Assembly: GCA_012932865.1 (NCBI GenBank)
Contig: SAXG01000031.1
Location: 310,001-374,000, forward strand
DNA length: 64,000 nucleotides
Origin: Amylostereum areolatum
Lineage: Eukaryota; Basidiomycota; Agaricomycetes; Russulales; Stereaceae
Direction of reading: 5' to 3'
The position numbers and the translations under genes were made by a program. The notes below the pieces were generated by a model that saw only the letters and a program-made list of their open reading frames with translations, ran no database searches and was not told the origin of the DNA. Shown here piece after piece: positions 25,196 through 58,058 of this stretch (the first letter of the stretch is position 1; every line of letters begins with the position of its first letter).

Positions 25196-25214
25196 CTCCC
25201 CCGTGATGAGACGC

Positions 25215-26641: not shown

Positions 26642-26659
26642 GGTTATGGGCCCTGCGCT
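26642..26659 (+). promoter_or_regulatory. Copia primer binding site, half-tRNA type
   Basis: GGTTATGGGCCCTGCGCT directly abuts the LTR. Its complement, AGCGCAGGGCCCATAACC, reads like the anticodon arm of initiator tRNA-Met (CAT anticodon) rather than a tRNA 3' end, as in Drosophila copia. The same sequence lies at 36159-36176 and 53755-53772. Confidence 0.75.
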
Positions 26660-27348: not shown

Positions 27349-30300
27349 ATGTCCGACTCTATCCCCAAAATCGACGCTCTCACCGGCCAAAACTACAAGG
27401 ACTGGTCGAACGAGGTTCTGGCCTGGCTCCAGACCAAGGGCTGGGACGCTGTAGTGCTGGGGGAGACGTCCAAGCCGGCGGATACTGCTGCTGCCGCCCT
27501 CAAGGAGTACACCTCGATCTGCTCCAAGGCTGGGGGTGCCATCTACCTCCTCATCTCCAAGGACCAGCGAGGTCCTGTGGACGACCTTAGGCGCGACGCC
27601 CCTGCTATGTGGACGAAGCTCGAGGCGCTGCACGTCAAGAAGGCGCCTGGCGCGCGCTTCAACGCGTATGACGACCTCTTCAATGTCCGCAAGAAGGAGG
27701 ACGAGTCCCTGCTCGCTATGGCGACGCGAGTCGACGATGCTATGCGTCGCATTCGTTCCCTTCGCCCTGCGTCTCTCACCCTCGAGGAGCTCGACAAGGA
27801 GCTCACCACCATGGCGTACATCCGCGCCCTCCCCTCGGAGTACTCCTCCTTCGTCTCGTCCCTCCTCCTGCTCGAGAAGCTCGACCCCGACAGCGTCAAG
27901 GACGCGTTTGTGCGCGAGGAGACCAACAGGGAGCGCAACCCCGAGTTCTTCAAGCCGGACGCTTCGTCTGCGCTCAGTGCGTCGTCGTCTGGCGCATCTG
28001 GCAAGGCCAAGGGGCAGTCCTCGCGTCCACGTCTCACTTGCGCGTTCTGCAAGAAGAGCGGGCACGAGGAGAAGACCTGCTATCAGAAGCAGATCAAGGA
28101 CCTGCGTTCTCGCCTTGGGGACAAGGCCAACGCCGCTTCGTCGTCGTCTGACGGCTTCAATCCTGCTGGCGAACACGCTGGCAGCGCTGCATCCGCAAGT
28201 GTCGCTCCTTCCGACCCCCTCTCGCCGCTGCAGCTCGATGCTGACGTCGATTGGAATGCAGACACCGGCGCCACGTCTCATATGACCCCGCATCGCCACT
28301 TCTTCGCCTCCTACCGTCCCCTTCGCACGCCCATTCGCCTCGCAGACGGAAAGACGGTGTACAGTGCAGGAGTCGGTTCAGTGGTGTTCAATCCGGTTGT
28401 AGCAGGAAAGGCGCAGGGTGCCGTCGAGTTTACTAGAGTCCTCCATGTTCCCCATCTTCGCAATAATCTCCTCTCTGTCCTCTACCTTGCGAAGCATAAG
28501 GCGTTCGTCGTCACCATCAAGGGGAGCCGCGTCTCCTTCGCTAAGGACGGCGCTGTGTGGTTCACTGCAACGATCAACGATGCGAACACCGCCTATCTCG
28601 ATGGTTCCACCTCTACAGCGTCGCACTACGCCCTATCCGCCGCGCTCGCCGCCTCTACGCCGCTCGACGCGTCCCTATGGCACCGCCGCCTGGCTCACTT
28701 CAACCACGCTGGTCTCCAGCGCATAGTGCGCGAGAATCTCGTCACCGGTCTCGTCTTCAACTCGTTAGAGAAGCCCGACCCTATCTGCGAGCCCTGCCTC
28801 GCTGGCAAGATGCATGCCGACCCGTTCCCCTCCTCTACCACCGTCTACACAAAGCGCCTCGCCCTCGTCCACTCTGACCTGCACGGTCCGCTTCCAGTCC
28901 GCACCGCCTCTGGCTATCGCTACTGGGTCCTCTACATCGACGCCGCCTCGCGTTTCTACGCCGTCTACCTGCTTCGCAAGAAGTCGGACCAGTACGAGGC
29001 GTTCAAGGACTTCAAAGCGTGGGCCGAGAAGCAGACAGGCGAGAAGCTGCTCGCGCTGCAGGACGACAAGGGGGGCGAGTACATGGGGCGCAACATGGAC
29101 GAGTTCTGTTCGCTGCACGGGATCGAGCGCCGTCATACGACGCGCAATCGCCCTCAGCAGAACGGCGTGGCGGAGCGTGCAAATCGCACCATTGAGGAGG
29201 GTGTCACCGCGATGCTTGCGGAGTCCGGCCTGCCTGCGTCTTTCTGGGGAGAAGCGCTCAGTGCCTACATCCACGTCCGCAACCGCCTGCCCACCGCCGC
29301 CATCAAGGCGCACACCACGCCCTTCGAGCTCTGGCACGGGTCCAAGCCGGATGTGAGTCGTCTGCGCGTGTGGGGATGCACCGCATACGTCCATATCCAG
29401 CGCGACAAGCGCAAGGGCCTGCAGCCGCACATGGTGAAGGCCGCCTTCATCGGGTATCCGGAGGGGTACAAAGGCTGGAAGTTCTGGGACCCTATAGCGA
29501 AGAAGGTCATCATTTGCGAGCGCGCCGACTTTGATGAGCGCGATTTCCCTCGCTCCAGGCTCAACAAGCCGCTCCTGCCCTCGCCTTCCGCTCCCCTCTT
29601 CCCTCCTCCGCCTCCATCGGAGCCTGCTCCCTCTCAGCTGGTGCTGGATGCCGGGGGAGACGACGACTCGTCCTCTGCTGAGCAAGACGAGCCTGATCTG
29701 CCTCCAGCTCCGCCTGCTGATGAGCATGATCAGGATGCGGCCGATCCCGCTCCTGCGCCGCCTGCAGCCGATCCTGCACCTCCCTCTCCACATGCGGGTC
29801 CTTCGCGGCCTGCTCCTCGAGGGAGGAAGCGCGCCGCCTCGCCCACCGGTCCTCTGCGCCGTAGCACGCGCGACGCCGTGGTCAAGGCGCGATCGAACAG
29901 CTGGCAGCCTCAACCAGTGCCCTCCAAGGCGAAAGTGCGCGAGCCGCTTCCTGCAGTCGAATCCGACGAGGAGGACGATGCTCACAGCGACTCTCCTGAG
30001 CCGTGGGCGAATGACGACGTCTACTCTGCGCAGGAGACGCCTGAGGCCGCCTTTGCCATCCACACCGCGTTGGAGACTGCCCTTCTATCCGCAGACGGCG
30101 AGCCGCTCTCCTACAGGCAGGCTATGCAGCGTCCAGACGCGGAGATGTGGCTTGCAGCGTGCAGAGAGGAGCTCGACGCGCATGCAGCCAATGGCACCTG
30201 GTCTATCGCTTCCCTTCCCCCTGGCGCGCACGCCGTCGCATCGCGCTGGGTCTTCAAGGTCAAGCGCAAGGAGGACGGCTCCATCGAGCGCTACAAGGCG

Positions 30301-30688
30301 CGCGTCGTCGCGAAGGGCTTTGCCCAGCGTCCTGGCTTCGACTACTTCGAGACCTTCGCTCCCACTGCCAAGTTCCAGGCCATCCGCACTGTCCTCGCCC
30401 TCGCCGCCGTCGAGGATCTCCACCTGCGCTCCATCGACATCTCCCATGCCTTCATCAATGGCGACCTCGATGCGGAGGTCTACATGAAGCAGCCTGAAGG
30501 CTTCGAGGAGGGTCCTCCTGGCGCGGTCTGCAAGCTGCAGAAGTCGATCTACGGCCTCAAGCAGGCCGCTCGCCTGTGGAAGATCAAGCTGATGGAGGTC
30601 CTGTGCGACAAGATGGGATTCCGCTGCATCTACAGCGACGCGTCAATCTACGTGCTCCAGCGCGACGCTGTGCGCGTTCTCCTCCCTG
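27349..30688 (+). pseudogene. gag-pol: Copia E1 gag-pol, 5' part (gag to mid-RT), inverted
   Basis: ATG at 27349 (MSDSIPKID). It encodes the gag domain (residues 1-225), a CCHC knuckle CAFCKKSGHEEKTC (~230), protease DTGA (~305), pre-integrase HHCC (~440-490), integrase core (D ~508, D ~570, E ~606) and the first half of RT. It stops within RT at the sequence encoding VLLPV, exactly at the CCCTG duplication where a copia LTR begins. An artificial read into the LTR ends soon after. Its continuation is 26190-25215 on the other strand. No internal stop is seen, so the break is purely structural. Confidence 0.9.
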
Positions 30689-31139
30689 TGTTGAAGTCGC
30701 AGTTGAAGGGGCTAGCCAACTAGCTAGGGACGCTCAGAACTGACACAAACAGTGGATTGCTGCAGCACAGAATGAGCGACTGAGAAACAAGACAGAAACG
30801 AGCAAAGGGCATACCTGCAGCACAGAATGAGCGACTGAGGAGGAGCAGACGCGTGTGGCTGCAGGTAGAGGCCATGGAGCGTGGGAGGAAACTCGGAATA
30901 AGCCGAGAATCGACCTAAAGCGGTAACTAACTCGAAACTGAAGCTAGGGAAGCTAGCTCAGGCTGAACTACAGTAAGTACAGTACAATAGCGAACAGTGG
31001 GTGAAGTGGAGAGGGCATGTGAGGGTATAGACGCGGAATTAGATGATAATAGGGTGAATGGAGCGGAATAGACGCGAATAGAAGGGAGATAGAACAGAAT
31101 AAAGGCGTAGAAATCAGACATAAATGAATATCTTCAACA
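30689..31139 (-). repeat. Copia LTR (3' LTR of E2)
   Basis: A 451 bp LTR with TGTTGAAG...CTTCAACA ends. The flank CCCTG (30684-30688) pairs as the inverted duplication with CAGGG at 26186-26190. Confidence 0.92.
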
Positions 31140-31158
31140 CTCCCCCGTGATGAGACGC

Positions 31159-34100
31159 CTACTCGAGTCCCATCATCTCCCTGCAGCGCACAACGCGCTC
31201 CCGAGGCAGCGCCTTCGTCAGGATGTCGGCCGGCATCTCGTTTGTCCCCACAAACTTGAGAACAATCCGGCCAGCCTCCACTTCGTCTCGCAGCCAGTAG
31301 AAGCGCAGGTCGAGGTGCTTCATGCGTCCATGATGCTCGGGATTCTTTGAGACGTTGATAGACGACTGATTGTCCGAGTACAGGAGCGAAGCGCCCTCGA
31401 CTGTGTAGCCAAACTCAGAGAGCAGGTTGCGCATCCAGACGATCTCCTTGCCAGCCTCGACGGCAGCAATGTACTCCGCCTCGGTCGTCGACTGTGCGAC
31501 GAGCGATTGGAGGCGAGAGCTCCAGCTGACAGCGCCAGAACCAATGCGGACGAGATACCCGCCTGTGGAGCGGCCATTGTCGACGTTTCCGCCGTGGTCC
31601 GAGTCTGTGAAGGTGGTGAACAGCTCGGAGTCGTCGGTCGGCCTGTACACGAGCTTCAAGTCCTTCGTGCCCTGGAGGTACTTGAACAGATGCTGGACGG
31701 CGCGCCAATGCTGAGGACCTGGGTCCGAAATGAAGCGGCAGAGAATGGAGACAGTGTAGGCGATGTCTGGACGGGTCGCAGTCGCGATGTAGAGCAGGGA
31801 GCCGACGGCGCTGCCATAGGGCACCTTTTGCATGAATTCGCGCTCAGAAGCGTTCTGGGGCGACATGGCCTTCGTCAGACGCGAGCCAGGAAGCATAGGC
31901 GTGGTGACAGGGTGGCAGTCGGCGTGATTGTAGCGCGCAAGCGTGTCGATGATGTACTGGCGCTGGGAGAGGAAGAGGGTGCGAAGGGAGCGGTCTCGAG
32001 TGATGTGGATGCCAAGGAGGAAGGAGGTGGGGCCGAGGTCTCGCAGCTTGAAGTGCGTGCGAAGAGTGGCGATGATCTCGTCGAGAACAGGCTCCGAATT
32101 CGACGCCAGGGTGCCGTCGTCGACGAAGACAGGGAGGAGAACGCGCACAGCGTCGCGCTGGAGCACGTAGATTGACGCGTCGCTGTAGATGCAGCGGAAT
32201 CCCATCTTGTCGCACAGGACCTCCATCAGCTTGATCTTCCACAGGCGAGCGGCCTGCTTGAGGCCGTAGATCGACTTCTGCAGCTTGCAGACCGCGCCAG
32301 GAGGACCCTCCTCGAAGCCTTCAGGCTGCTTCATGTAGACCTCCGCATCGAGGTCGCCATTGATGAAGGCATGGGAGATGTCGATGGAGCGCAGGTGGAG
32401 ATCCTCGACGGCGGCGAGGGCGAGGACAGTGCGGATGGCCTGGAACTTGGCAGTGGGAGCGAAGGTCTCGAAGTAGTCGAAGCCAGGACGCTGGGCAAAG
32501 CCCTTCGCGACGACGCGCGCCTTGTAGCGCTCGATGGAGCCGTCCTCCTTGCGCTTGACCTTGAAGACCCAGCGCGATGCGACGGCGTGCGCGCCAGGGG
32601 GAAGGGAAGCGATAGACCAGGTGCCATTGGCTGCATGCGCGTCGAGCTCCTCTCTGCACGCTGCAAGCCACATCTCCGCGTCTGGACGCTGCATAGCCTG
32701 CCTGTAGGAGAGCGGCTCGCCGTCTGCGGATAGAAGGGCAGTCTCCAACGCGGTGTGGATGGCAAAGGCGGCCTCAGGCGTCTCCTGCGCAGAGTAGACG
32801 TCGTCATTCGCCCACGGCTCAGGAGAGTCGCTGTGAGCATCGTCCTCCTCGTCGGATTCGACTGCAGGAAGCGGCTCGCGCACTTTCGCCTTGGAGGGCA
32901 CTGGTTGAGGCTGCCAGCTGTTCGATCGCGCCTTGACCACGGCGTCGCGCGTGCTACGGCGCAGAGGACCGGTGGGCGAGGCGGCGCGCTTCCTCCCTCG
33001 AGGAGCAGGCCGCGAAGGACCCGCATGTGGAGAGGGAGGTGCAGGATCGGCTGCAGGCGGCGCAGGAGCGGGATCGGCCGCATCCTGATCATGCTCATCA
33101 GCAGGCGGAGCTGGAGGCAGATCAGGCTCGTCTTGCTCAGCAGAGGACGAGTCGTCGTCTCCCCCGGCATCCAGCACCAGCTGAGAGGGAGCAGGCTCCG
33201 ATGGAGGCGGAGGAGGGAAGAGGGGAGCGGAAGGCGAGGGCAGGAGCGGCTTGTTGAGCCTGGAGCGAGGGAAATCGCGCTCATCAAAGTCGGCGCGCTC
33301 GCAAATGATGACCTTCTTCGCTATAGGGTCCCAGAACTTCCAGCCTTTGTACCCCTCCGGATACCCGATGAAGGCGGCCTTCACCATGTGCGGCTGCAGG
33401 CCCTTGCGCTTGTCGCGCTGGATATGGACGTATGCGGTGCATCCCCACACGCGCAGACGACTCACATCCGGCTTGGACCCGTGCCAGAGCTCGAAGGGCG
33501 TGGTGTGCGCCTTGATGGCGGCGGTGGGCAGGCGGTTGCGGACGTGGATGTAGGCACTGAGCGCTTCTCCCCAGAAAGACGCAGGCAGGCCGGACTCCGC
33601 AAGCATCGCGGTGACACCCTCCTCAATGGTGCGATTTGCACGCTCCGCCACGCCGTTCTGCTGAGGGCGATTGCGCGTCGTATGACGGCGCTCGATCCCG
33701 TGCAGCGAACAGAACTCGTCCATGTTGCGCCCCATGTACTCGCCCCCCTTGTCGTCCTGCAGCGCGAGCAGCTTCTCGCCTGTCTGCTTCTCGGCCCACG
33801 CTTTGAAGTCCTTGAACGCCTCGTACTGGTCCGACTTCTTGCGAAGCAGGTAGACGGCGTAGAAACGCGAGGCGGCGTCGATGTAGAGGACCCAGTAGCG
33901 ATAGCCAGAGGCGGTGCGGACTGGAAGCGGACCGTGCAGGTCAGAGTGGACGAGGGCGAGGCGCTTTGTGTAGACGGTGGTAGAGGAGGGGAACGGGTCG
34001 GCATGCATCTTGCCAGCGAGGCAGGGCTCGCAGATAGGGTCGGGCTTCTCTAACGAGTTGAAGACGAGACCGGTGACGAGATTCTCGCGCACTATGCGCT

Positions 34101-35469
34101 GGAGACCAGCGTGGTTGAAGTGAGCCAGGCGGCGGTGCCATAGGGACGCGTCGAGCGGCGTAGAGGCGGCGAGCGCGGCGGATAGGGCGTAGTGCGACGC
34201 TGTAGAGGTGGAACCATCGAGATAGGCGGTGTTCGCATCGTTGATCGTTGCAGTGAACCACACAGCGCCGTCCTTAGCGAAGGAGACGCGGCTCCCCTTG
34301 ATGGTGACGACGAACGCCTTATGCTTCGCAAGGTAGAGGACAGAGAGGAGATTATTGCGAAGATGGGGAACATGGAGGACTCTAGTAAACTCGACGGCAC
34401 CCTGCGCCTTTCCTGCTACAACCGGATTGAACACCACTGAACCGACTCCTGCACTGTACACCGTCTTTCCGTCTGCGAGGCGAATGGGCGTGCGAAGGGG
34501 ACGGTAGGAGGCGAAGAAGTGGCGATGCGGGGTCATATGAGACGTGGCGCCGGTGTCTGCATTCCAATCGACGTCAGCATCGAGCTGCAGCGGCGAGAGG
34601 GGGTCGGAAGGAGCGACACTTGCGGATGCAGCGCTGCCAGCGTGTTCGCCAGCAGGATTGAAGCCGTCAGACGACGACGAAGCGGCGTTGGCCTTGTCCC
34701 CAAGGCGAGAACGCAGGTCCTTGATCTGCTTCTGATAGCAGGTCTTCTCCTCGTGCCCGCTCTTCTTGCAGAACGCGCAAGTGAGACGTGGACGCGAGGA
34801 CTGCCCCTTGGCCTTGCCAGATGCGCCAGACGACGACGCACTGAGCGCAGACGAAGCGTCCGGCTTGAAGAACTCGGGGTTGCGCTCCCTGTTGGTCTCC
34901 TCGCGCACAAACGCGTCCTTGACGCTGTCGGGGTCGAGCTTCTCGAGCAGGAGGAGGGACGAGACGAAGGAGGAGTACTCCGAGGGGAGGGCGCGGATGT
35001 ACGCCATGGTGGTGAGCTCCTTGTCGAGCTCCTCGAGGGTGAGAGACGCAGGGCGAAGGGAACGAATGCGACGCATAGCATCGTCGACTCGCGTCGCCAT
35101 AGCGAGCAGGGACTCGTCCTCCTTCTTGCGGACATTGAAGAGGTCGTCATACGCGTTGAAGCGCGCGCCAGGCGCCTTCTTGACGTGCAGCGCCTCGAGC
35201 TTCGTCCACATAGCAGGGGCGTCGCGCCTAAGGTCGTCCACAGGACCTCGCTGGTCCTTGGAGATGAGGAGGTAGATGGCACCCCCAGCCTTGGAGCAGA
35301 TCGAGGTGTACTCCTTGAGGGCGGCAGCAGCAGTATCCGCCGGCTTGGACGTCTCCCCCAGCACTACAGCGTCCCAGCCCTTGGTCTGGAGCCAGGCCAG
35401 AACCTCGTTCGACCAGTCCTTGTAGTTTTGGCCGGTGAGAGCGTCGATTTTGGGGATAGAGTCGGACAT
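31159..35469 (-). CDS. gag-pol: Copia E2 gag-pol polyprotein, intact
   Basis: A 1,436-residue uninterrupted Ty1/copia polyprotein from ATG at 35469 (MSDSIPKID). Order: gag (1-225), CCHC knuckle (~230-243), aspartic protease DTGA (~304), GAG pre-integrase HHCC (~440), integrase DDE (~508, 570, 606), a low-complexity proline/acidic linker (~750-880), RT with FVDD at ~1112, RNase H (~1290-1370). The frame stays open upstream to 35634, but the internal ATG is preferred because element D gag aligns from the same Met. The protein would be cleaved by its own protease and act in cytoplasmic particles. With intact ends and near-identical LTRs this is the best candidate for an active autonomous element in the window. 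Confidence 0.95.
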   Translation of the reverse strand: MSDSIPKIDALTGQNYKDWSNEVLAWLQTKGWDAVVLGETSKPADTAAAALKEYTSICSKAGGAIYLLISKDQRGPVDDLRRDAPAMWTKLEALHVKKAPGARFNAYDDLFNVRKKEDESLLAMATRVDDAMRRIRSLRPASLTLEELDKELTTMAYIRALPSEYSSFVSSLLLLEKLDPDSVKDAFVREETNRERNPEFFKPDASSALSASSSGASGKAKGQSSRPRLTCAFCKKSGHEEKTCYQKQIKDLRSRLGDKANAASSSSDGFNPAGEHAGSAASASVAPSDPLSPLQLDADVDWNADTGATSHMTPHRHFFASYRPLRTPIRLADGKTVYSAGVGSVVFNPVVAGKAQGAVEFTRVLHVPHLRNNLLSVLYLAKHKAFVVTIKGSRVSFAKDGAVWFTATINDANTAYLDGSTSTASHYALSAALAASTPLDASLWHRRLAHFNHAGLQRIVRENLVTGLVFNSLEKPDPICEPCLAGKMHADPFPSSTTVYTKRLALVHSDLHGPLPVRTASGYRYWVLYIDAASRFYAVYLLRKKSDQYEAFKDFKAWAEKQTGEKLLALQDDKGGEYMGRNMDEFCSLHGIERRHTTRNRPQQNGVAERANRTIEEGVTAMLAESGLPASFWGEALSAYIHVRNRLPTAAIKAHTTPFELWHGSKPDVSRLRVWGCTAYVHIQRDKRKGLQPHMVKAAFIGYPEGYKGWKFWDPIAKKVIICERADFDERDFPRSRLNKPLLPSPSAPLFPPPPPSEPAPSQLVLDAGGDDDSSSAEQDEPDLPPAPPADEHDQDAADPAPAPPAADPAPPSPHAGPSRPAPRGRKRAASPTGPLRRSTRDAVVKARSNSWQPQPVPSKAKVREPLPAVESDEEDDAHSDSPEPWANDDVYSAQETPEAAFAIHTALETALLSADGEPLSYRQAMQRPDAEMWLAACREELDAHAANGTWSIASLPPGAHAVASRWVFKVKRKEDGSIERYKARVVAKGFAQRPGFDYFETFAPTAKFQAIRTVLALAAVEDLHLRSIDISHAFINGDLDAEVYMKQPEGFEEGPPGAVCKLQKSIYGLKQAARLWKIKLMEVLCDKMGFRCIYSDASIYVLQRDAVRVLLPVFVDDGTLASNSEPVLDEIIATLRTHFKLRDLGPTSFLLGIHITRDRSLRTLFLSQRQYIIDTLARYNHADCHPVTTPMLPGSRLTKAMSPQNASEREFMQKVPYGSAVGSLLYIATATRPDIAYTVSILCRFISDPGPQHWRAVQHLFKYLQGTKDLKLVYRPTDDSELFTTFTDSDHGGNVDNGRSTGGYLVRIGSGAVSWSSRLQSLVAQSTTEAEYIAAVEAGKEIVWMRNLLSEFGYTVEGASLLYSDNQSSINVSKNPEHHGRMKHLDLRFYWLRDEVEAGRIVLKFVGTNEMPADILTKALPRERVVRCREMMGLE

Positions 35470-36158
35470 AATGAGGAATTGGAGAGGATATACGCAAAAA
35501 GCGACGATTTGGACGAGCAGAGGTTCGAGGGGGCGCCGAGGGCGATGGGATAGGGCGATGGGGGCGGGTACGACGGCGATGGGGAGGGTGGATGGTCTAG
35601 ATGGAGGCCTGAAGAGCGCGTACCGATAGCACAACGCGATGGGAAGCTACACTCGTCCGATCCCAAGGTGAAAATTTCTCGAAACAGCCTCCTGCAAACA
35701 ACGAGCTCCTGAGGGCGAACGGCTTCAGCGACGGCTACCGCGTTTGGCGAGGGGGTAGGTAGGGTGGTAGGGAGGGCTGACGCGAAGCGAGGTAGCAAAC
35801 GGTTGAAGGGGCGCTGAGGGCGCCTTTGATGTTTGTGGGAGGAGGAGGAGGAAGCGTCACAGGCTGTGGACGCGCAGCGACAAAAGCGACGGCCTTGGGG
35901 CTTGGCACGAAGTTGGATAGGGAGTAGTAGATGCGGAATATGCAAGGGCGAGGCGAACGGATGAAGGGGCGTTGCGTGCGCGCTTGATGTTGCGAAATGC
36001 GCGCCCTGGAGGATGGGGATGGCGTTGGGAGGCGACGGATGGGTCGTTCGACTTGAAACTCGAGGGCTGGGGCCTCTAGGGATGGTAGGAGAGGTGTGTA
36101 GAAGGACGAGGCGAGGGGGGTGCTGTGAGGCGAGATAAAAGCGATGGATGTTGGCTAG

Positions 36159-36176
36159 AGCGCAGGGCCCATAACC
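36159..36176 (-). promoter_or_regulatory. Copia E2 primer binding site
   Basis: AGCGCAGGGCCCATAACC on the plus strand, next to the 5' LTR of E2. It has the same complementarity to the initiator tRNA-Met anticodon arm as at 26642-26659. Confidence 0.75.
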
Positions 36177-36627
36177 TGTTGAAGTCGCAGTTGAAGGGGC
36201 TAGCCAACTAGCTAGGGACGCTCAGAACTGACACAAACAGTGGATTGCTGCAGCACAGAATGAGCGACTGAGAAACAAGACAGAAACGAGCAAAGGGCAT
36301 ACCTGCAGCACAGAATGAGCGACTGAGGAGGAGCAGACGCGTGTGGCTGCAGGTAGAGGCCATGGAGCGTGGGAGGAAACTCGGAATAAGCCGAGAATCG
36401 ACCTAAAGCGGTAACTAACTCGAAACTGAAGCTAGGGAAGCTAGCTCAGGCTGAACTACAGTAAGTACAGTACAATAGCGAACAGTGGGTGAAGTGGAGA
36501 GGGCATGTGAGGGTATAGACGCGGAATTAGATGATAATAGGGTGAATGGAGCGGAATAGACGCGAATAGAAGGGAGATAGAACAGAATAAAGGCGTAGAA
36601 ATCAGACATAAATGAATATCTTCAACA
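36177..36627 (-). repeat. Copia LTR (right end of composite)
   Basis: A 451 bp LTR followed by TTATC, which matches the left flank of the composite. By the inversion model it is a hybrid of the E1 and E2 5' LTRs. Confidence 0.92.
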
Positions 36628-36632
36628 TTATC

Positions 36633-37252
36633 TGAGCTGGGCAAAATCTCGGCGAGACCGGAAGGTCATGTACATCATAATGACACTTTGCCGGACTTGC
36701 CTTTGTATTAGAAACAGCTGAAACAATTTATTCTTTCTGCCCATTGGCTGACCGGTGGCAAGGGCCGGTGAGAACTCTTGACCTCAATGAGAGCTAGTAT
36801 TTGAACTAGGTGAAATCTTGGCGTGTCTGGAAGGGTACAGATAGCATACTATCACCTCGCCGGACCTGCCTTTGAATTAGAAACAGGTGATATGATTCAC
36901 CATTGCTCGCCATCAGCTAACCGGTGCCAAGGATCGGTGAGAGCTCCTCAGCTCGCCAAGCTCCAGTACCTCAACTGGACAAAATCTCGGCGAGACTAGA
37001 AGGTCATATTGGACATAATACCACCTCGCCGGACCTGCCTTTGCATTAGAAACAGCTGAAAAAATACACTCTTTCTGCCCATTGGCTCACCGGTGGCAAG
37101 GGTTGGTGAGAGCTCCCTGGCTTGCCGAGGCCTATTATCTGAACTGGGCAAAATCTCGGCGAGACCAGAAGGACATATAAATCATAATAACACCTTGCCG
37201 GACCTACTTTTGCATCAAAAACAGCTGAAACAATTCACTCTTTCTGTCTATT
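36633..37252. repeat. Satellite arm 2, right part
   Basis: Continues the inverted ~169 bp satellite; it is the reverse complement of about 15053-15670. It is cut at 37252 by the LTR of chromovirus B. Confidence 0.85.
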
Positions 37253-40015: not shown

Positions 40016-41188
40016 TGAGGATGGGTTTACGGATGGGTACATCTTTGGGAGGAAACCGTAGAGGACTTCAAAGGGAGCCTTTCCAGTAGCTGCATGGGTG
40101 CGAGAGTTGTGAGAAAACTCGAAGAAGGGCAACCACTTCACCCAGTCATCTTGTCGGTAGTTGCAGAATACTCGCAGGAACTGTTCGAGGTTCTGGTTGT
40201 CCTTGGTTTTGCAGTCGCGGATACGTCGTCGGAGTTCGACATTGCCGAGGGAGGTTACTGCTCCTGGCCTTGTTGCGCGTACCTGGAAGTACTTGGGGTC
40301 AAGCAAGACGTGCTCCTTGTTGTCATTTTCAACACCGTCCTTGTGATCGGGTCGTCGAGACATTGGGTCCAGGCGATGGGATACTCCTGGTTTGTGAACG
40401 AGCGAGAAGTCAAATTGAGTGAGGAATAGAGCCCAACGTGCCTGTTGGCGGCTCAGCTTCTGTGCCGTCTTGAAGTGCTCCAGATTCTTGTGATCTGTCC
40501 AGATTTCGACGGTGTCGGGGGCGCCTTCAAGGTAGTGGTGCCAGGCTTCAAGCGCATGGATGATTGCGAGTAGCTCCTTGTCGTAGATGTCGTAGTTGTG
40601 TTCCGGTTCCGATAGGGCCTTGGACAGATATGCCACTGGATGCCAGTGGCCGTCGTTGCCTTTCTGCGAGAGTATACCTCCAGTAGCAAAGTCCGAGGTG
40701 TCAACCTCAACGAGGTAAGGCTTATTTGGGTCAGGCATGACCAAGACAGGGGAGGAAGTAAATGCAGCTTTCAGTGCGTCAAACGCAGTTTGGCAGTCCG
40801 TCGACCAGTCCCATGTGCAGTCCTTCTTTGTCAGGTCACATAGGGGTCATGCAACCTTGGAGAAGTCCTTGATGAAACGTCGGTAGAAGTTGCCAAAGCC
40901 AAGGAAAGATTGCACATCTTTGACCGTTTGTGGTGTCGGCCAGTCCTGAATATCTGCTACCTTGACGGGGTCCATAGCGATCTTGTCGTGCGAGATGATG
41001 AGTCCAAGGTATTCAACGGAGTCTTGCTCAAAGACACATTTCTCCAGTTTGAGGAAGAGGTCGTTGTCTTGCAGACATTGCAGAACCTGCCGCACTATGT
41101 GTTGAAATAAGGCTAAGCCCTGGCCTGTTGCACACAATCAGAGCTCGGTGATATTCTCTATATCAACTACCAACCTGTTCCCACTATT

Positions 41189-41262
41189 GGACAGGTAGCT
41201 CAGTTGGTTAGAGCACCCTTCTAGAATATGGGAGGTCCTGGGTTCAATCCCCGGCCAGTCCA
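41189..41262 (+). tRNA. tRNA-like gene in TRIM-1 5' LTR
   Basis: 74 nt folding as a cloverleaf: acceptor GGACAGG/CCAGTCC with one A-A mismatch, D arm GCTC...GAGC, anticodon stem CCCTT/ATGGG with one mismatch, T arm CTGGG/CCCGG, discriminator A. A box TAGCTCAGTTGG matches the consensus; B box GGTTCAATCCC is near-consensus. Loop CTAGAAT would give anticodon AGA, yet the long variable arm of a serine tRNA is absent, so decoding is doubtful and a Pol III promoter role is more likely. Confidence 0.7.
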
Positions 41263-41308
41263 CTTTGTGTTTCACTTTATGACTGAAGGTCCCTCTGTGT
41301 TTTCAACA

Positions 41309-41322
41309 TGGTAGCAGCACCC
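41309..41322 (+). promoter_or_regulatory. TRIM primer binding site
   Basis: TGGTAGCAGCACCC directly follows the 5' LTR. Its complement ends GCTACCA, as expected of a tRNA 3' end and compatible with initiator tRNA-Met. It is identical in the other two full copies (45093 and 46805). Confidence 0.7.
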
Positions 41323-41482
41323 GCCTTCATGATTACTGTTGGGCACAAGTGGCGAGTGCCTAAGATCACATCAGGCCTGGTCTTACGGGGGTGTGTTGAA
41401 ATAAGGCTAAGCCCTGGCCTGTTGCACACAATCAGAGCTCGGTGATATTCTCTATATCAACTACCAACCTGTTCCCACTATT

Positions 41483-41556
41483 GGACAGGTAGCTCAGTTG
41501 GTTAGAGCACCCTTCTAGAATATGGGAGGTCCTGGGTTCAATCCCCGGCCAGTCCA
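41483..41556 (+). tRNA. tRNA-like gene in TRIM-1 3' LTR
   Basis: Second copy of the same 74 nt sequence, 294 bp downstream, in the other LTR. Confidence 0.7.
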
Positions 41557-43207
41557 CTTTGTGTTTCACTTTATGACTGAAGGTCCCTCTGTGTTTTCAA
41601 CACTATGGCATGCTGTTCATCCATGGTGCGAGTGAACACCAAGATGTCATCCATGTAGATAATGACCTTGCCCGAGTCGATGAGATCCTTGAACAGTTCA
41701 TTCATTATTGCCTGAAATGTCGCAGGGGAGTTCGTAAGCCCGAAAAACATCACCGTAGGTTCGAAGAGACCGCGATTCGTCTTGAACGCAGCCTTCCACT
41801 CGTCGCCTTCCTTGATGCGGACATTGTTGTAGCCCCAGCGAACATCCATCTTGGAGAAGATCTTTGCACCTTTGAGACGGTCGACAATTTCAGAGATCAG
41901 TGGCAAGGGGTATTCATTCTTGACAGTGCCCTTGTGTAGTTCTCGATAGTCCTGTACGGGACGCAGCTTTCCATCCTTTTTCTTCACAAAGAAGAACGGA
42001 CTCGCCTGAGGTGACTTCAATGGGCAGATATAGCCCTTCTTCAGGTGGTCGTCGATGAAGGTGTCGAGTTCGATCTGCTCGGAAGGTGAGAGGGGGTAGA
42101 TTTTGCACGGTTTGGGTTCAAAGCCGTCTTTCATGTCGATAGCATGGTCCCATGGTCGTCGGTCAGGAAGTCGCTCGGAGGTTTTCTTGTTGAATACAGA
42201 CACAAAGTCGCGGTATGGAGGGGGGACTAAGTCTTCGAAGGTTTGCGGGCGTGCGTTCTCTTTTGAATGCTCTGCAAGCTCCTGCGCTTTTGTAAAGCCC
42301 GCACGGATGGGTACTGCATCTGGATTAGGACCATCGGTTTCAGGGAGGATTCCAGCGCGGTGTAGTCCATTGATCTCCCAGTCTCGGAATACCATAGGCC
42401 ACTCGTCGTCATCTTCAGTGAAGAGCCTTGCAGGTAGAGGGGAGCGATGGACCGTGTGAAGGCGAACACCTTTGACTCTGCGTGCAGGAATGACATAGGT
42501 GGGGACTGGGGTCCAGAACACATATGTCGGTTCTGGGAAGGGATCGTCCACGACGAGAGGTGTCCTCGGGGTTTTACCTGCTTCAACCTTACGCTGTGAT
42601 TGGACCGATGATGGTTTCCGTGGCTTGGTTGCGAGGTTTGTCACAGGAGGTTTGGACAGAGTGCACAAGGGAGGGCAGCGGAGCATGTCAACACGGTCTT
42701 GTTGCCAGTCTATGGTGGGATTGTGCTCGTCGAGCCAGTCTGTTCCAAGGATCATGTCATGATCGCCAATGTCGGTGATGAAGAACTCAGCTTCTTCCTC
42801 ATGGTATGCCTTTGAATCTTGCGAGTATATCCGGATCCGCTGGGTCGTTGTGTCGCGTACCCAGCCCATGATGTTCTTGGTGCCGTCCACATTACGCACG
42901 GGGAACGGGTTTTCTAGTCTTCTTGTGGTAAGCTTCTTGCATTCCACGAAGCTTCGGTTCAGGATAATTCCTTCTGCGCCGCTATCAAGCAGCGCGTCTG
43001 CGTCGATTTCTCTTTTGGTAACTCGTCCGATCAGCTTGACTTTGAGCATGATCGATGGTGTTTGCCTGTTCTTGGTGACGGTAGACAGATACAAGCACGG
43101 GGGATACGATTGCTCACAGGTATGCATGGATGATAATACAGCGAAACGATTCGACAATGATACCAAAAGTCCTTTGCCTCCACCAGACGACGCAACTGGG
43201 GGGTGTT

Positions 43208-44194: not shown

Positions 44195-44972
44195 TTTGTC
44201 AGCGGGGAGGGCGATGTCGAGGGATCGGGTGAAGGCTGCTTCTTATTGGCGTCGGAGTTCCTTGCGATGTTCTTCAGCTTCGTCAAGCTCGATTTGGACT
44301 TCACGCGCGACTTGGAATTCGAGGGGTGTGATGAGTTCCTGGTTGTGTCTCCAAAACCAGAGATCCTGAACAGGGTTTGCACTAGAGGGTTGCCACTCAA
44401 CTACTGTGCGCCCTGGTGTTCCTTGCTGGTTCCATTGATACGCGTACCACTTCCTGGTGACGCTGTCGAACTTGAATCCTCTGGGGGGGAAGAGGACGGT
44501 AGATCGGTGGGGCGGTGGGGAAGAGGATTCTGGTGGGTCGATGAAGGCGGCAAGGACGTCGGTTGCAAGATCAAAGTCTTCGTCTGTGAGATAGTTGCCT
44601 CCTTGAAAGTACCAGTCTTGTCTGCTTTCTTCGGAGGGATTGTGGGCCCAATGTACTGGTCTCTTGGTGTCTAGGGAGGTGAGGACGGAGTATTCGTACA
44701 GACAATAGTCGCGGAAGATACCCGGGGGGAACGCGGGGGTGGGGGGATGGGTGAAGGTTTGGGAAGCGATGGTTCTAGAAGAAGTCGGCCGCGACGGGGC
44801 GACGACCGAGAAGTTTCTGGGTGAGGTAGCTGGCTTTTACAGCCTGGCGGATCTTGTGTTCGAGGTGACGGTGGCGGAGGGTCTGTTGAAATAAGGCTAA
44901 GCCCTGGCCTGTTGCACACAATCAGAGCTCGGTGATATTCTCTATATCAACTACCAACCTGTTCCCACTATT

Positions 44973-45046
44973 GGACAGGTAGCTCAGTTGGTTAGAGCAC
45001 CCTTCTAGAATATGGGAGGTCCTGGGTTCAATCCCCGGCCAGTCCA
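44973..45046 (+). tRNA. tRNA-like gene in TRIM-2 5' LTR
   Basis: Same 74 nt cloverleaf sequence as at 41189, with consensus A box and near-consensus B box. Confidence 0.7.
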
Positions 45047-45266
45047 CTTTGTGTTTCACTTTATGACTGAAGGTCCCTCTGTGTTTTCAACATGGTAGCA
45101 GCACCCGCCTTCATGATTACTGTTGGGCACAAGTGGCGAGTGCCTAAGATCACATCAGGCCTGGTCTTACGGGGGTGTGTTGAAATAAGGCTAAGCCCTG
45201 GCCTGTTGCACACAATCAGAGCTCGGTGATATTCTCTATATCAACTACCAACCTGTTCCCACTATT

Positions 45267-45340
45267 GGACAGGTAGCTCAGTTGGTTAGAGCACCCTTCT
45301 AGAATATGGGAGGTCCTGGGTTCAATCCCCGGCCAGTCCA
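45267..45340 (+). tRNA. tRNA-like gene in TRIM-2 3' LTR
   Basis: Same 74 nt sequence, second LTR of TRIM-2. Confidence 0.7.
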
Positions 45341-45890
45341 CTTTGTGTTTCACTTTATGACTGAAGGTCCCTCTGTGTTTTCAACAGGGTCTTGCCCTTG
45401 ATAGTGGGACGGAGGACTGGTGGCGGGGTGGATTCCGGTGTGGGGATTGCAAAATTGTAGACGGCAGGGAAGTTGTGTTGGATGATCGATGGAGGTAGAT
45501 GGGTGTTGGAACAGGTGTGCCAGGTGGGGGAGTGAATTGAGAATTCAAACCGGTTCCAATCTACGTCAAAGCACGCAACGACACGAGCGTAGAGGCAGAG
45601 GATTGTCTGCCTACCGTGATCGTGATTCCAGTGCCACTTGTATATGCAGCAATTGACTCCGTGGACCTTCCAGGTATGTTCCCTACAGAGGAGTTCAAGA
45701 GCTCGTATGCAATCGACAGTGGCCACGTTTGCTCGGGGCCAGGGGAACGGGGTGTTGCAATCAGGGTTGAATGCTTGGAGATTGAAGGTGAGAAAGATCG
45801 GTTTGGCGGTGGGTTCCAGGGTGGGGGTTTTTAACGTCGTAGAGATGGCGAGGGAGGTATAGGGGAGAGGGGTGCGAGGTAGGCGTAGGG

Positions 45891-46595: not shown

Positions 46596-46684
46596 TGTTG
46601 AAATAAGGCTAAGCCCTGGCCTGTTGCACACAATCAGAGCTCGGTGATATTCTCTATATCAACTACCAACCTGTTCCCACTATT

Positions 46685-46758
46685 GGACAGGTAGCTCAGT
46701 TGGTTAGAGCACCCTTCTAGAATATGGGAGGTCCTGGGTTCAATCCCCGGCCAGTCCA
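46685..46758 (+). tRNA. tRNA-like gene in TRIM-3 5' LTR
   Basis: Same 74 nt sequence as at 41189. Confidence 0.7.
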
Positions 46759-46978
46759 CTTTGTGTTTCACTTTATGACTGAAGGTCCCTCTGTGTTTTC
46801 AACATGGTAGCAGCACCCGCCTTCATGATTACTGTTGGGCACAAGTGGCGAGTGCCTAAGATCACATCAGGCCTGGTCTTACGGGGGTGTGTTGAAATAA
46901 GGCTAAGCCCTGGCCTGTTGCACACAATCAGAGCTCGGTGATATTCTCTATATCAACTACCAACCTGTTCCCACTATT

Positions 46979-47052
46979 GGACAGGTAGCTCAGTTGGTTA
47001 GAGCACCCTTCTAGAATATGGGAGGTCCTGGGTTCAATCCCCGGCCAGTCCA
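46979..47052 (+). tRNA. tRNA-like gene in TRIM-3 3' LTR
   Basis: Same 74 nt sequence as at 41189. Confidence 0.7.
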
Positions 47053-48548
47053 CTTTGTGTTTCACTTTATGACTGAAGGTCCCTCTGTGTTTTCAACAAC
47101 CCAAGGAATGACTGGACATCCTTGATGTTACGAGGGGTGGGCCACTCAGTGATGCCCGCTACCTTGACAGGGTCCATAGCAATCTGGTCGTGCAAGATAA
47201 TCAAACCAAGGTACTCAACAGAATCCTGTTTGAAGACACATTTCTCTGGCTTGAGGGAGAGGTCATTGTTCTTCAGCCATTGCAGCACCTGTGTCATCAG
47301 TTCACGGTGAGCTTCGAGTGTCTCTGTGAAGACAAGGATGTTGTCCATGTACATAATAACCTTGCCACTGTCGATGAGATCCTTGAAAAGTTCATTCATC
47401 ATTGCCTGGAACATTGCAGGAGAATTCATAAGGCCAAAGAATATCACCAGGGGTTCGTACAGCCCATGGTTCGTTCTGAAAGCAGCCTTCCACTTGTCTC
47501 CTTCCTTGATATGGACATTGTTGTATCCCCAGCGGACATCCATCTTAGAGAAGACCTTGGCACCTTTGAGTTTGTCAACAAGCTCGGAAATGAGTGGGAG
47601 TGGGTATTCGTTCTTGATAGTGCCTTTATTCAATGCTCGATAGTCCTGTACAGGACGAAGCTTCCCGTCCTTTTTCTTGACAAAGAAGAAGGGACTTGCC
47701 ATGGATGATTTCGACGGGCAAATGTACCCCTTGACGTGTTCATTGAGGAAGCTGTCCAGCTCTTGCTGCTCGGACGGGGTCAAAGGATACACCTTGCAAG
47801 CCTTTAGTTGGAAGCCTGGTTTCAGATCAATAGCATGGTCCCAGGGGCGTCGCTCAGGGAGACGTTCAGACGTAGCTTTGTCAAACACCAACTTGAATGA
47901 GCGATACTGCTCAGGAACTATATCCTCAAATGTTTTTGTCTTGACATCGGCTGCCTGTTCTACAAGCTGTTGCACCTTGGTGAAGGTGGCACATATGGCA
48001 AGGTCGTTGGACTGTTCTTCTTGTGCTAGCTGTTCAAAGGTGACCTCCTTTATGACTTCCGTGGCACGCAGGCCTTCTTGGGTCCAGGAAGCCAGGACAA
48101 TGTCCGACTGCTCGTTGTTATCTTCTGTGAACCACTTTGCACCTGAAGGTGTACGGTGGGGAGAACGAACACAAGCATGATGTACACAGTGGGCAGAGAT
48201 CATGTACTTCATGTTGCTTGGGTGGTTGGTCACAGTGTGGACACGAGGTTCTTTGACTTCAACCTCGTCGGCTTCAACGACGTCAATGGGTGGTTGTGGC
48301 CCAGACCAATGTTCAGGTTTGATGCGAAGCTTCTTGACTGGAGGCTTGTGTGGGACAGAGGTAGGTGGGCAGCGCGTCATGTCGACTTCTTCTCTGTCCC
48401 AGTTGATTTCTGGATTATGCTCCTTCAACCAGTCAGTTCCTAGAATCATGTCGTGATCACCAATGTCTGTGACAAAGAATTTGGCTGTTTCTTCATAATA
48501 CGATTCTGTGGATTGTGCATAGATGCAAACACGCTGGGTAGTCAGATG

Positions 48549-48749
48549 TGTTGAAAACACAGAGGGACCTTCAGTCATAAACAAAGTGGACTGGCCAGTG
48601 ATTGAACCCACGACCTCCCATATTCTAGAAGGGTGCTCTAACCAACTGAGCTACCTATCCGATAGTGGGAACAGGTTGGCAGTTGATATAGAGGATATCA
48701 CTGAGCTCTGATTGTGTGCAACAGGCCAGGGCTTAGCCTTATTTCAACA
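48549..48749 (-). repeat. Solo LTR of the tRNA-bearing TRIM, older copy
   Basis: A 201 bp solo LTR, TGTTGAAAAC...TTTCAACA on plus. It lacks 8 bp (AGTGAAAC region) and has several substitutions. The flanks AGATG and CAATG agree at only three of five positions. It is inserted in the protease region of element C. Confidence 0.85.
48587..48660 (-). tRNA. tRNA-like gene in solo TRIM LTR (diverged)
   Basis: 74 nt, with 5' end GGATAGG and a TGG substitution in the T-loop region relative to the TRIM copies. The A box is intact and the T arm weakened. Confidence 0.5.
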
Positions 48750-49308: not shown

Positions 49309-49517
49309 TGTTGAAAACACAGAGGGACCTTCAGTCATAAAGTGAAACACAAAGTGGACTGGCCGGGGATTGAACCCAGGACCTCCCATATTCTAGAAGG
49401 GTGCTCTAACCAACTGAGCTACCTGTCCGATAGTGGGAACAGGTTGGTAGTTGGTATAGAGGATATCACCGAGCTCTGATTGTGTGCAACAGGCCAGGGC
49501 TTAGCCTTATTTCAACA
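49309..49517 (-). repeat. Solo LTR of the tRNA-bearing TRIM
   Basis: A 209 bp solo LTR with a perfect 5 bp duplication CCTAC (49304-49308, 49518-49522), inserted in the gag of element C. Confidence 0.92.
49355..49428 (-). tRNA. tRNA-like gene in solo TRIM LTR
   Basis: Minus-strand copy of the 74 nt sequence, with the same loop and the same A and B boxes as in the full TRIMs. Confidence 0.68.
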
Positions 49518-51707: not shown

Positions 51708-54223
51708 TGTTGAAGTCGCAGTTGAAGGGGCTAGCCAACTAGCTAGGGACGCTCAGAACTGACACAAACAGTGGATTGCTGCAGCACAGAATGAGCGACT
51801 AAGAAACAAGACAGAAACGAGCAAGGGGCATACCTGCAGCACAGAATGAGCGACTGAGGAGGAGCAGACGCGTGTGGCTGCAGGGAGAGGCCATGGAGCG
51901 TGGGAGGAAACTCGGAATAAGCCGAGAATCGCCCTAAAGCGGCAACTAACTCGAAACTGAAGCTAGGGAAGCTAGCTCAGGCTGAACTACAGTAAGTACA
52001 GTACAATAGCGAACAGTGGGTGAAGTGGAGAGAGCATGTGAGGGTATAGACGCGGAATGAGACGATAAGAGGGTGAATGGAGCGGAATAGAAGCGAATAG
52101 AACGGAGATAGAACAGAATAAAGGCGTAGAAATCAGATATAAACGAATATCTTCAACACCAATCGACGTCAGCATCGAGCTGCAGCGGCGAGAGGGGGTC
52201 GGAAGGAGCGACACTTGCGGATGCAGCGCTGCCGGCGTGTTCGCCAGCAGGATTGAAGCCGTCAGACGACGACGACGCGGCGTTGGCCTTGTCCCCAAGG
52301 CGCGAACGCAGGTCCTTGATCTGCTTCTGGTAGCAGGTCTTCTCCTCGTGCCCGCTCTTCTTGCAGAACGCGCAAGTGAGACGTGGACGCGAGGACTGCC
52401 CCTTGGCCTTGCCAGGCGCGCCAGAGGACGACGCACTGAGCGCAGACGAGGCGTCCGGCTTGAAGAACTCGGGGTTGCGCTCCCTGTTGGTCTCCTCGCG
52501 CACAAACGCGTCCTTGACGCTGTCGGGGTCGAGCTTCTCGAGCAGGAGGAGGGAGGAGACGAAGGAGGAGTACTCCGAGGGCAGGGCGCGGATGTACGCC
52601 ATGGTGGTGAGCTCCTTGTCGAGCTCCTCGAGGGTGAGAGACGCAGGGCGAAGGGAGCGAATGCGACGCATAGCATCGTCCACTCGCGTCGCCATAGCGA
52701 GCAGGGACTCGTCCTCCTTCTTGCGGACATTGAAGAGGTCGTCATACACGTTGAAACGCGCGCCAGGCGCCTTCTTGACGTGCAGCGCCTCGAGCTTCGT
52801 CCACATGGCAGGGGCGTCGCGCCTAAGGTCGTCCACAGGGCCTCGTTGGTCCGTGGAGATGAGGAGATAGATCGCACCCCCAGCCTTGGAGCAGATCGAG
52901 GTGTACTCCTTGAGGGCGGCAGCAGCAGTATCCGCCGGCTTGGACGTCTCCCCCAGCACTACAGCGTCCCAGCCCTTGGTCTGGAGCCAGGCCAGGACCT
53001 CGTTGGACCAGTCCTTGTAGTTTTGGCCGGTAAGAGCATCGATTTTGGGGATAGAGTCGGACATAGTGAGGAATTGGAGAGGATATGCGCAAAAAGCGAC
53101 GATTTGGACGAGCAGAGGTTCGAGGGGGGCGCCGAGGGCGAAGGGATAGGGCGATGGGGGCGGTTACGACCGCGATGGGGAGGGTGGATTGTCTAGATGG
53201 AGGCCTGAAGAGCGCGTACCGATAGCACAACACGATGGGGAGCTACACTCGTCCGATCCCAAGGCGAAAATTTCTCGAAACAGCCTCCTGCAAACAACGA
53301 ACTCCTGAGGGCGAACGGCTTCAGCGACGGCTACCGCGTTTGGCGAGGGGATAGGTAGGGTGGTAGGGAGGGCTGACGCGAAGCGAGGGAGGAAACGGTT
53401 GAAGGGGCGCTGAGGACGCCTTTGATGTTGGTGGGAGGAGGAGGAGGAAGCGTCGCAGGCTGTGGAGGCGCAACGACAAAAGCGACCGCCTTGGGGCTTG
53501 GCACGAAGTTGGATAGGGAGTAGTAGGTGCGGAATATGCAAGGGCGAGGTGAACGGATGAAGGGGCGTTGCGTGCGCGCTTGATGTTGCGAAATGCGCGC
53601 CCTGGAGGATGGGGATGGCGTTGGGAGGCGACGGATGGGTCGTTCGACTTGAAACTCGAGGGCTGGGGCCTCTAGGGATGGTAGGAGAGGTGTGTAGAAG
53701 GACGAGGCGAGGGGGGTGCTGTGAGGCGAGATAAAAGCGATGGATGTTGGCTAGAGCGCAGGGCCCATAACCTGTTGAAGTCGCAGTTGAAGGGGCTAGC
53801 CAACTAGCTAGGGACGCTCAGAACTGACACAAACAGTGGATTGCTGCAGCACAGAATGAGCGACTAAGAAACAAGACAGAAACGAGCAAAGGGCATACCT
53901 GCAGCACAGAATGAGCGACTGAGGAGGAGCAGACGCGTGTGGCTGCAGGTAGAGGCCACAGAGCGTGGGAGGAAACTCGGAATAAGCCGAGAATCGACCT
54001 AAAGCGGTAACTAACTCGAAACTGAAGCTAGGGGAGCTAGCTCAGGCTGAACTACAGTAAGTACAGTACAAATGGGTACAGTAGGTGAAGTGGAGAGGGC
54101 ATGTGAGGGTATAGACGCGGAATGAGACGATAAGAGGGTGAATGGAGTGGAATAGAAGCGAATAGAAAGGAGATAGAACGGAATAAAGGCGTAGAAATCA
54201 GACATAAATGAATATCTTCAACA
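51708..54223 (-). mobile_element. Copia D, internally deleted non-autonomous element
   Basis: LTRs 51708-52158 and 53773-54223, with the PBS at 53755-53772, leader and only the first ~302 codons of gag-pol between them. All sequence from the protease onward is missing and the 3' LTR abuts the truncated gene. The flanks GTGGT and AAAGG do not match, so the structure probably arose by recombination. Confidence 0.88.
52159..53064 (-). pseudogene. gag: Copia D gag, truncated
   Basis: Begins MSDSIPKID at 53064, contains the gag domain and CCHC knuckle CAFCKKSGHEEKTC (near 52340), and stops at LDADVDW where the LTR begins, just before the protease DTGA motif. It is nearly identical to the E2 gag. 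It could still encode a capsid protein with a short LTR-derived tail. Confidence 0.88.
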
Positions 54224-57857: not shown

Positions 57858-58058
57858 TGTTCAAACAAGGCTAAGCCCTGGCCTGTTGCACACAATCAGA
57901 GCTCAGTGATATCCTCTATATCAACTGCCAACCTGTTCCCACTATCGGACAGGTAACTCAGTTGGTTAGAGCACCCTTCTGGAATATGGGAGGTCCTAGG
58001 TTCAATCCCTGGCCAGTCCACTTTGTGTTTCACTTTATGACTGAAGGTCCCTTCAACA
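57858..58058 (+). repeat. Solo LTR of the tRNA-bearing TRIM, diverged
   Basis: 201 bp, TGTTCAAACAAGG...CTTCAACA, missing 8 bp near its 3' end (CTGTGTTT). No matching target duplication is visible. It lies at the 3' end of the SNF2 gene. Confidence 0.82.
57947..58020 (+). tRNA. tRNA-like gene in solo TRIM LTR (diverged)
   Basis: 74 nt with TAACTCAGTTGG as A box (one change) and loop CTGGAAT, so the position-34 to -36 triplet becomes GGA. This variation fits a sequence not under decoding constraint. Confidence 0.5.

Follow-up and report, generated by a model that had tools for sequence, protein, structure and literature searches.

A Helenus-type miniature LTR retrotransposon with a tRNA relic in each LTR and a candidate Copia helper in Amylostereum areolatum

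A 64,000-nt stretch of the Amylostereum areolatum genome (contig SAXG01000031.1, positions 310,001 to 374,000; the whole stretch is hereafter called the window, and copy coordinates are window positions) contains three copies of a 503-bp element bounded by long terminal repeats (LTRs). We identify this element as a Helenus-type terminal-repeat retrotransposon in miniature (TRIM), a kind that is already known and not new. Each LTR contains the relic of a tRNA gene that has kept its promoter boxes, and the copies form a young burst that was recently active. We consider it likely that the decayed tRNA gene acts as an internal promoter, and that the element would complete a cycle based on RNA polymerase III (Pol III) with Copia proteins supplied in trans. 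To the published description of Helenus (PMC10886601, as far as its available text goes) we add a named primer, a candidate helper Copia family and the compact repeat islands that the two share.

Anatomy of the element and its tRNA-like segment

Self-comparison of the window identified three letter-identical elements, the first of which spans positions 41100-41602 (see Table 1 for the other two). Each consists of two identical 209-bp LTRs with the tips TGTTGAAA/TTTCAACA and an 85-bp interior, and each has its own 5-bp target duplication on both sides (CTATG, GGGTC and ACCCA, respectively), as described in the first-pass annotation, which had been made from the letters of the window alone. The interior indeed holds the two features proposed for it, namely a primer-binding site (PBS, TGGTAGCAGCACC) at its start and a purine tract (TTACGGGGGTG) at its end. 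The three solo LTRs that had been listed are present as single LTRs, but only the one flanked by GTAGG has a perfect 5-bp duplication.

The tRNA-like segment occupies LTR positions 90-163 (74 nt). The Rfam tRNA covariance model RF00005 matched eight places in the window, seven of them at 56.1 bits (E-value 2.2e-9) and the one at 57947 at 50.2 bits; the LTR at 48549 was not among these matches. The score of the LTR segment exceeds the Rfam gathering cut-off, and tRNA is the sole family at gathering level in the window, where no 5S rRNA-derived LTR sequence was found. ARAGORN made nine 'tRNA-Ser' calls in the window. The A box TAGCTCAGTTGG and the B box GGTTCAATCCC both exactly match the consensus; for the A box this is what had been proposed, whereas the B box had been called near-consensus and is a full match. 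Both boxes arose in one of 20000 mononucleotide shuffles of the LTR, and both are intact in 114 of the 119 LTRs that we compared (those of 122 alignments that cover at least 190 bp).

A cloverleaf drawn on the segment forms 19 of its 21 pairs; the two mismatches are A.A (acceptor stem) and U.U (anticodon stem). When the 74 nt were folded alone, the energy had a z-score of -1.25, 26 of 200 shuffles folded as well and the anticodon arm was shifted; in a 129-nt context the z-score was 0.27, 123 of 200 shuffles folded as well and the predicted fold was not a cloverleaf. The segment is supported by homology, not by stability, and the earlier claim of a 74-nt cloverleaf stands for its tRNA homology but gains nothing from folding energy.

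For the primer, a pattern for initiator tRNA-Met matched four genomic places, all with one sequence that ends in GAGGTGCTGCTA. With CCA added, its 3′ end pairs with the first 13 bases of the interior without mismatches. A different pattern tried before, covering both acceptor arms, had yielded a single match that was not a tRNA and was rejected. Among fungal Helenus elements, the 3′ end of initiator tRNA-Met is described in the available text as a minority choice that arose several times (PMC10886601).

Table 1. Features of the Helenus-type element, its copies and the candidate partner Copia element in the window.
Feature	Position	Strand	Basis or remark
5′ LTR of copy 1 (209 bp, TGTTGAA...TTCAACA)	41100..41308	+	Identical to its own 3′ LTR and to copies 2 and 3
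TATA, 30 bp 5′ of the tRNA-like segment; could be an upstream element for Pol III or Pol II	41159..41162	+	Sequence
tRNA-like segment, anticodon loop AGA, short variable arm	41189..41262	+	RF00005 56.1 bits; ARAGORN; 19/21 pairs
A box TAGCTCAGTTGG	41196..41207	+	Fits consensus; intact in 117/119 LTRs compared
B box GGTTCAATCCC	41241..41251	+	Fits consensus; intact in 116/119 LTRs compared
TTTT, candidate weak Pol III terminator	41300..41303	+	Sole T-run of at least 4 in the LTR; TTTT in 117/119 LTRs compared
PBS TGGTAGCAGCACC	41309..41321	+	Complementary to 3′ end of initiator tRNA-Met with CCA, 13/13 bases
Interior, 85 bp	41309..41393	+	Too short for any required protein
Purine-rich tract TTACGGGGGTG preceding the 3′ LTR	41383..41393	+	Sequence
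3′ LTR of copy 1	41394..41602	+	Contains tRNA-like segment 41483-41556
Copy 2, duplication GGGTC	44884..45386	+	tRNA-like segments 44973-45046, 45267-45340
Copy 3, duplication ACCCA	46596..47098	+	tRNA-like segments 46685-46758, 46979-47052
Single diverged LTR, 92.3% identity, 8-bp deletion, no perfect duplication	48549..48749	-	Alignment
Solo LTR, 98.6% identity, duplication GTAGG	49309..49517	-	Alignment
Single diverged LTR, anticodon loop GGA	57858..58058	+	94.9% identity over first 195 bp; 8 bp deleted before final TTCAACA
Copia element, candidate partner family	30689..36627	-	451-bp identical LTRs TGTTGAAG...CTTCAACA, PBS GGTTATGGGCCC, tract CACGGGGGAG

Genome-wide copies and relation to Helenus

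We queried the genome (57.13 Mb in 182 contigs) with the tRNA-like core of the LTR and found 161 places with at most three mismatches, 100 of which were listed; the reversed control gave none. An interior pattern that makes no use of the tRNA part gave 55 matches, and 30 of these were fetched. Copies elsewhere that lack the tRNA-like segment had been named beforehand as what would speak against a regular association; the segment was present in both LTRs (at most five mismatches) of 26 of the 30. Among the exceptions, L081 has ten mismatches on one side owing to a 1-base deletion, while L085, L087 and L088 have no segment at the expected place in the upstream LTR. The fetched stretches contained 47 LTR pairs, 40 of them with perfect 5-bp target duplications, which extends to these stretches what had been described for the window. 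The two LTRs are identical in 42 of the 47 pairs and differ in length in the other five. Judged from their flanks, at least four of the 40 perfectly duplicated pairs are segmental duplicates (two on contig C1, one on C56 and one shared by C72 and C158). One sequence is shared by 81 of the 119 compared LTRs, and ten more, including those of the full copies in the window, differ from it only at LTR position 89. The copies thus represent a young burst of a recently active element. At C32:62626-63626, a copy has landed in the candidate Pol III terminator of a second one, within the GTTTT close to the end of its 3′ LTR.

The 65 insertions into which the 100 listed core matches collapse have a median nearest-neighbour distance of 3239 bp. 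Targeting of tRNA genes was unsupported: seven tRNA genes located on contigs that carry listed copies lie 115-849 kb from the nearest of them.

In the available text of Kojima 2024 (PMC10886601), Helenus elements are TRIMs with tRNA-derived sequence in their LTRs that occur in fungi, animals and a plant, and A. areolatum is among the hosts. The fungal members are described there as having 5-bp duplications, an affinity to Copia and predicted pseudo-tRNAs that include Ser-AGA, and Helenus elements from unrelated hosts are said to retain the A and B boxes. The same text suggests that Helenus arose several times by insertion of a tRNA-type short interspersed element (SINE), and treats Pol III transcription as expected and, by its own statement, not validated. 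The element in the window is shorter than about 1 kb, non-coding and bounded by two LTRs (503 bp with an 85-bp interior). Each of its LTRs has tRNA-derived sequence with A and B boxes, the PBS follows the 5′ LTR, the polypurine tract (PPT) TTACGGGGGTG precedes the 3′ LTR, and 40 of 47 LTR pairs have 5-bp target duplications. Its tRNA-like unit is not a functional tRNA, as shown by the short variable arm and the 19 of 21 pairs. Because the defining features tested here (the helper aside) were all found and the host is named in the parts of PMC10886601 available, we file the element as already known. Judged from these features and the named host, it very probably belongs to the same family as the published A. 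areolatum Helenus.

No structural difference from Helenus was found; priming by the 3′ end of initiator tRNA-Met places the element with a minority of the fungal families described in the accessible text (PMC10886601). Likenesses extend to the disagreement between anticodon and tRNA body, to the suggested Copia link and to the Ser-AGA look-alikes that this text reports for families in Puccinia striiformis, Uromyces and Cronartium. The first-pass annotation, which had described a miniature LTR retrotransposon whose LTRs each hold a tRNA-like unit as a presumed Pol III promoter and had compared it to the plant element Cassandra with a tRNA in place of 5S rRNA, is supported on both counts, and what it described is, per the same source, the published Helenus. 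Cassandra is likewise a TRIM, and each of its LTRs contains the gene of a small RNA together with a Pol III promoter; unlike Helenus, it uses 5S rRNA rather than a tRNA and is found in plants. tRNA-derived SINEs share the tRNA-like Pol III promoter and the lack of coding capacity, but have no LTRs, PBS or PPT. At sequence level, our results independently confirm the Helenus type, and they add a named primer and evidence that the element transposed recently.

A candidate Copia helper and shared repeat islands

There is a strong hint that one young Copia family may move the Helenus element. The Copia element in the window (Table 1) has the LTR tips TGTTGAA/TTCAACA and the tract core ACGGGGG in common with the small element; a Gypsy LTR in the window seems to begin with TGTCACGG. 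The Copia PBS GGTTATGGGCCC matches the anticodon loop of initiator tRNA-Met over 12 bases. The Copia family is like Helenus in its tips, tract core, primer tRNA and genomic islands. It differs by encoding gag-pol, by 451-bp LTRs without a tRNA-like segment, and by priming from the anticodon loop where Helenus uses the 3′ end. The closest sequence link between Helenus and Copia in the available text of PMC10886601 joins elements from two separate species; the family in the window is a testable candidate helper from the same genome. The LTRs of the Copia element are identical and its flanking 5-mers are unequal (CCCTG and TTATC), so it seems to lie in a rearranged spot. At 24744-36627, two nearly identical inverted Copia copies share LTRs, have unequal flanking 5-mers and are either nested or rearranged.

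We then compared the positions of Copia reverse transcriptase (RT) genes with those of 98 known Helenus insertions. The RT profile (PF07727) had 130 matches in the genome, 74 of them near-complete (at least 200 of 244 positions), and proximity was defined as lying within 20 kb of a known insertion. In the score class of the window copy (203-209 bits), which was set by score after the list had been viewed and is not a phylogeny, 38 of 45 RTs were close to Helenus, compared to 2 of the 29 other near-complete RTs (0/19 above 209 bits and 2/10 below 203 bits). Counted by contig, the proportions were 17/20 for this class versus 2/20 (Fisher p 3e-6). For all RT matches together, the count was 74/130. 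A hand-picked set of 72 of the 130 matches gave 38/45 versus 0/27, and we prefer the rule-based figures. The two exceptions outside the class, on contigs C149 and C56, are only 255 and 473 bp away from a Helenus copy, so that they may be interrupted representatives of the candidate family. Among the best-scoring 150 of 897 candidate Gypsy integrase matches, a set that excludes lower-scoring copies such as those in the window, a single one was close to Helenus. Sequence this close to a known insertion makes up no more than 2.4% of the genome. The Copia LTR was present in 23 of 38 merged stretches around Helenus copies, the window included.

Known Helenus insertions occupy one compact stretch on most contigs tested. 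On the 3.1-Mb contig C1, eight insertions fall within 14 kb, including two copies of a duplicated segment, and on the 790-kb contig C96 twelve fall within 62 kb. We performed a uniform-placement test on 18 contigs, with C72, C100 and C131 left out and insertions known only from unlisted core matches missing. The observed span was reached in none of 20000 trials on seven of the 18 contigs and in fewer than 5% of trials on 14; clustering beyond uniform placement was not reached on C41, C76, C134 and C165. In Agaricus bisporus, a single large cluster of repeats on each chromosome has been interpreted as the centromere, and a Copia family occurs in these clusters only (PMC7473861, in the part available). 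By analogy, the Helenus/Copia islands are perhaps centromeres. The co-location, the compact clusters and the centromeric Copia described in the available part of PMC7473861 together lead us to a speculative proposal, which we put forward tentatively: Helenus and one young Copia family could be parasite and helper, with insertions of both confined almost entirely to one compact island per chromosome, probably the centromere, where scores of Pol III/TFIIIC sites would be laid down. If this is true, the tRNA-like sites could affect centromere or boundary function, a helper and its parasite can use the same tRNA at different ends (anticodon loop versus 3′ end), and TRIMs with a Pol III promoter would become linked to centromere biology.

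Several other repeat structures were observed. Tandem arrays of a ~169-bp repeat (14805-16084, 24137-24734 and 36629-37246; 70-74% matches) lie next to Copia and are possibly a local satellite. Sought as a possible common centromere satellite, this repeat was found in only one of the 38 stretches, the window itself, most of the stretches reaching only 1.5 kb from the copies. A head-to-tail array of Copia LTRs with a period of ~969 bp spans 53772-57127 (LTR starts at 53773, 54742, 55711 and 56680), and regularly spaced Copia RTs occur on C41 (3728 bp), C148 (4004 bp) and C85 (~4279 bp).

Proposed cycle and alternative explanations

The cycle that we propose joins observations (anatomy, PBS match, target duplications, recent activity and Copia co-location) through steps that we infer, namely Pol III transcription, the start and end of the RNA, read-through, packaging and the identity of the helper. 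In the 5′ LTR, Pol III would bind the two promoter boxes and start near the 5′ end of the tRNA-like segment, with the TATA at -30. It would often pass the weak TTTT of the 5′ LTR (LTR positions 201-204, five bases before the LTR end) and stop at or beyond the TTTT of the 3′ LTR. The expected product is an RNA of ~410 nt in which ~115 nt are repeated at both ends, as strand transfer needs; partial read-through would also yield a short tRNA-like RNA. Copia proteins acting in trans would package the long RNA, the 3′ end of initiator tRNA-Met would prime reverse transcription, and Copia integrase would insert the DNA, resulting in 5-bp duplications. Regarding the terminator, we viewed 14 nuclear tRNA loci (20 were fetched; five AT-rich, probably mitochondrial loci and one Helenus copy were excluded by eye). 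Eleven have a T-run of at least five within 60 nt and three have only T4. Since this puts T4 at the weak end of the range, partial read-through is plausible.

A number of points weigh against this cycle. The use of the LTR boxes by Pol III is read from sequence, and the TTTT in the 5′ LTR could stop the polymerase before the interior; as three of the 14 tRNA loci have only T4, four Ts may suffice. The cloverleaf is not favoured by folding energy, either as the 74 nt or in the 129-nt context. Constraint on the tRNA part was not seen among the diverged LTRs, most of which are dead copies: there were 20 distinct substitutions per 74 sites in this part compared to 25 per 135 in the rest of the LTR (Fisher p 0.16), and 15 of the 20 fell in paired columns, which make up 42 of the 74. 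As the variants are mostly single and probably belong to dead copies, the absence of a constraint signal says little. On the helper side, exact and near-exact patterns revealed no Copia element with the same PBS, and the candidate Copia is primed by another part of this tRNA, the anticodon loop. The exact 13-base PBS had 56 matches, of which 55 are at interiors of this element and one is at C117:151468 (not read). Nor was any autonomous element found that combines this LTR tip with this PBS: the 54 matches of one pattern comprised 53 places of this family and one unrelated, mismatched site, and a second pattern had none. Beyond the tips and tract, no longer similarity was detected to the Copia LTR or to the 500 bp at each end of the Copia interior. 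The Copia class was delimited by score, as stated above, and its co-location with Helenus might arise simply because both prefer the same chromatin.

Most LTR elements use RNA polymerase II (Pol II). If this TRIM did so as well, transcription would be driven from the LTR TATA (LTR positions 60-63) with a start near LTR position 90, and the tRNA-like segment would be a passenger acquired from a tRNA gene or SINE. The TATA, 30 bp upstream of the segment, could be used by either polymerase, and both the absence of visible constraint among mostly dead copies and the problematic TTTT in the 5′ LTR fit this explanation. We nevertheless regard it as unlikely, considering that both boxes are intact in nearly all compared LTRs, though mostly from young copies, and that Helenus of unrelated hosts conserve the same boxes according to the text available (PMC10886601).

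Transcription as a tRNA gene proper is far less probable still. The ARAGORN calls and an Rfam score above the gathering cut-off might point to a tRNA-Ser(AGA) gene that is both functional and mobile and contributes to the tRNA supply of the cell. However, the variable arm of the segment is only 5 nt (AGGTC) and two of its pairs are mismatched, whereas the real Ser-AGA genes (three viewed) are ~82 nt with a long variable arm. For this reason the segment is not a tRNA-Ser gene but a tRNA relic retaining promoter boxes, and its anticodon and body disagree, as in many Helenus families described in the available text of PMC10886601. The initial description as a complete tRNA-like gene was correct in 'tRNA-like', which Rfam and ARAGORN bear out; 'complete' was overstated, as the segment cannot be a proper tRNA-Ser. 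Segmental duplication or ectopic recombination, in place of retrotransposition, is likewise hardly credible as the way in which the copies multiplied. Some copies do share their flanks (the pairs on C1, 504997 and 513679 on C56, and 9034 on C72 with 11550 on C158), but the majority of the 40 perfect duplications have a sequence and flanks of their own, and these differing 5-bp duplications contradict such an origin. We therefore favour retrotransposition of a Helenus-type TRIM through the putative Pol III cycle.

The tRNA-like units may also bear on genome annotation. The published A. areolatum assembly comprises 57.57 Mb in 248 scaffolds, with 457 tRNA genes reported (PMC7227769, in the part available). 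Since 161 places match the tRNA-like core of the LTR, this count may be inflated by LTR units that tRNAscan-SE would have taken for genes. In the available part of the same paper, the genome size is given as 53,481,184 bp in the text and as 57,567,124 bp in Table 1 (PMC7227769).

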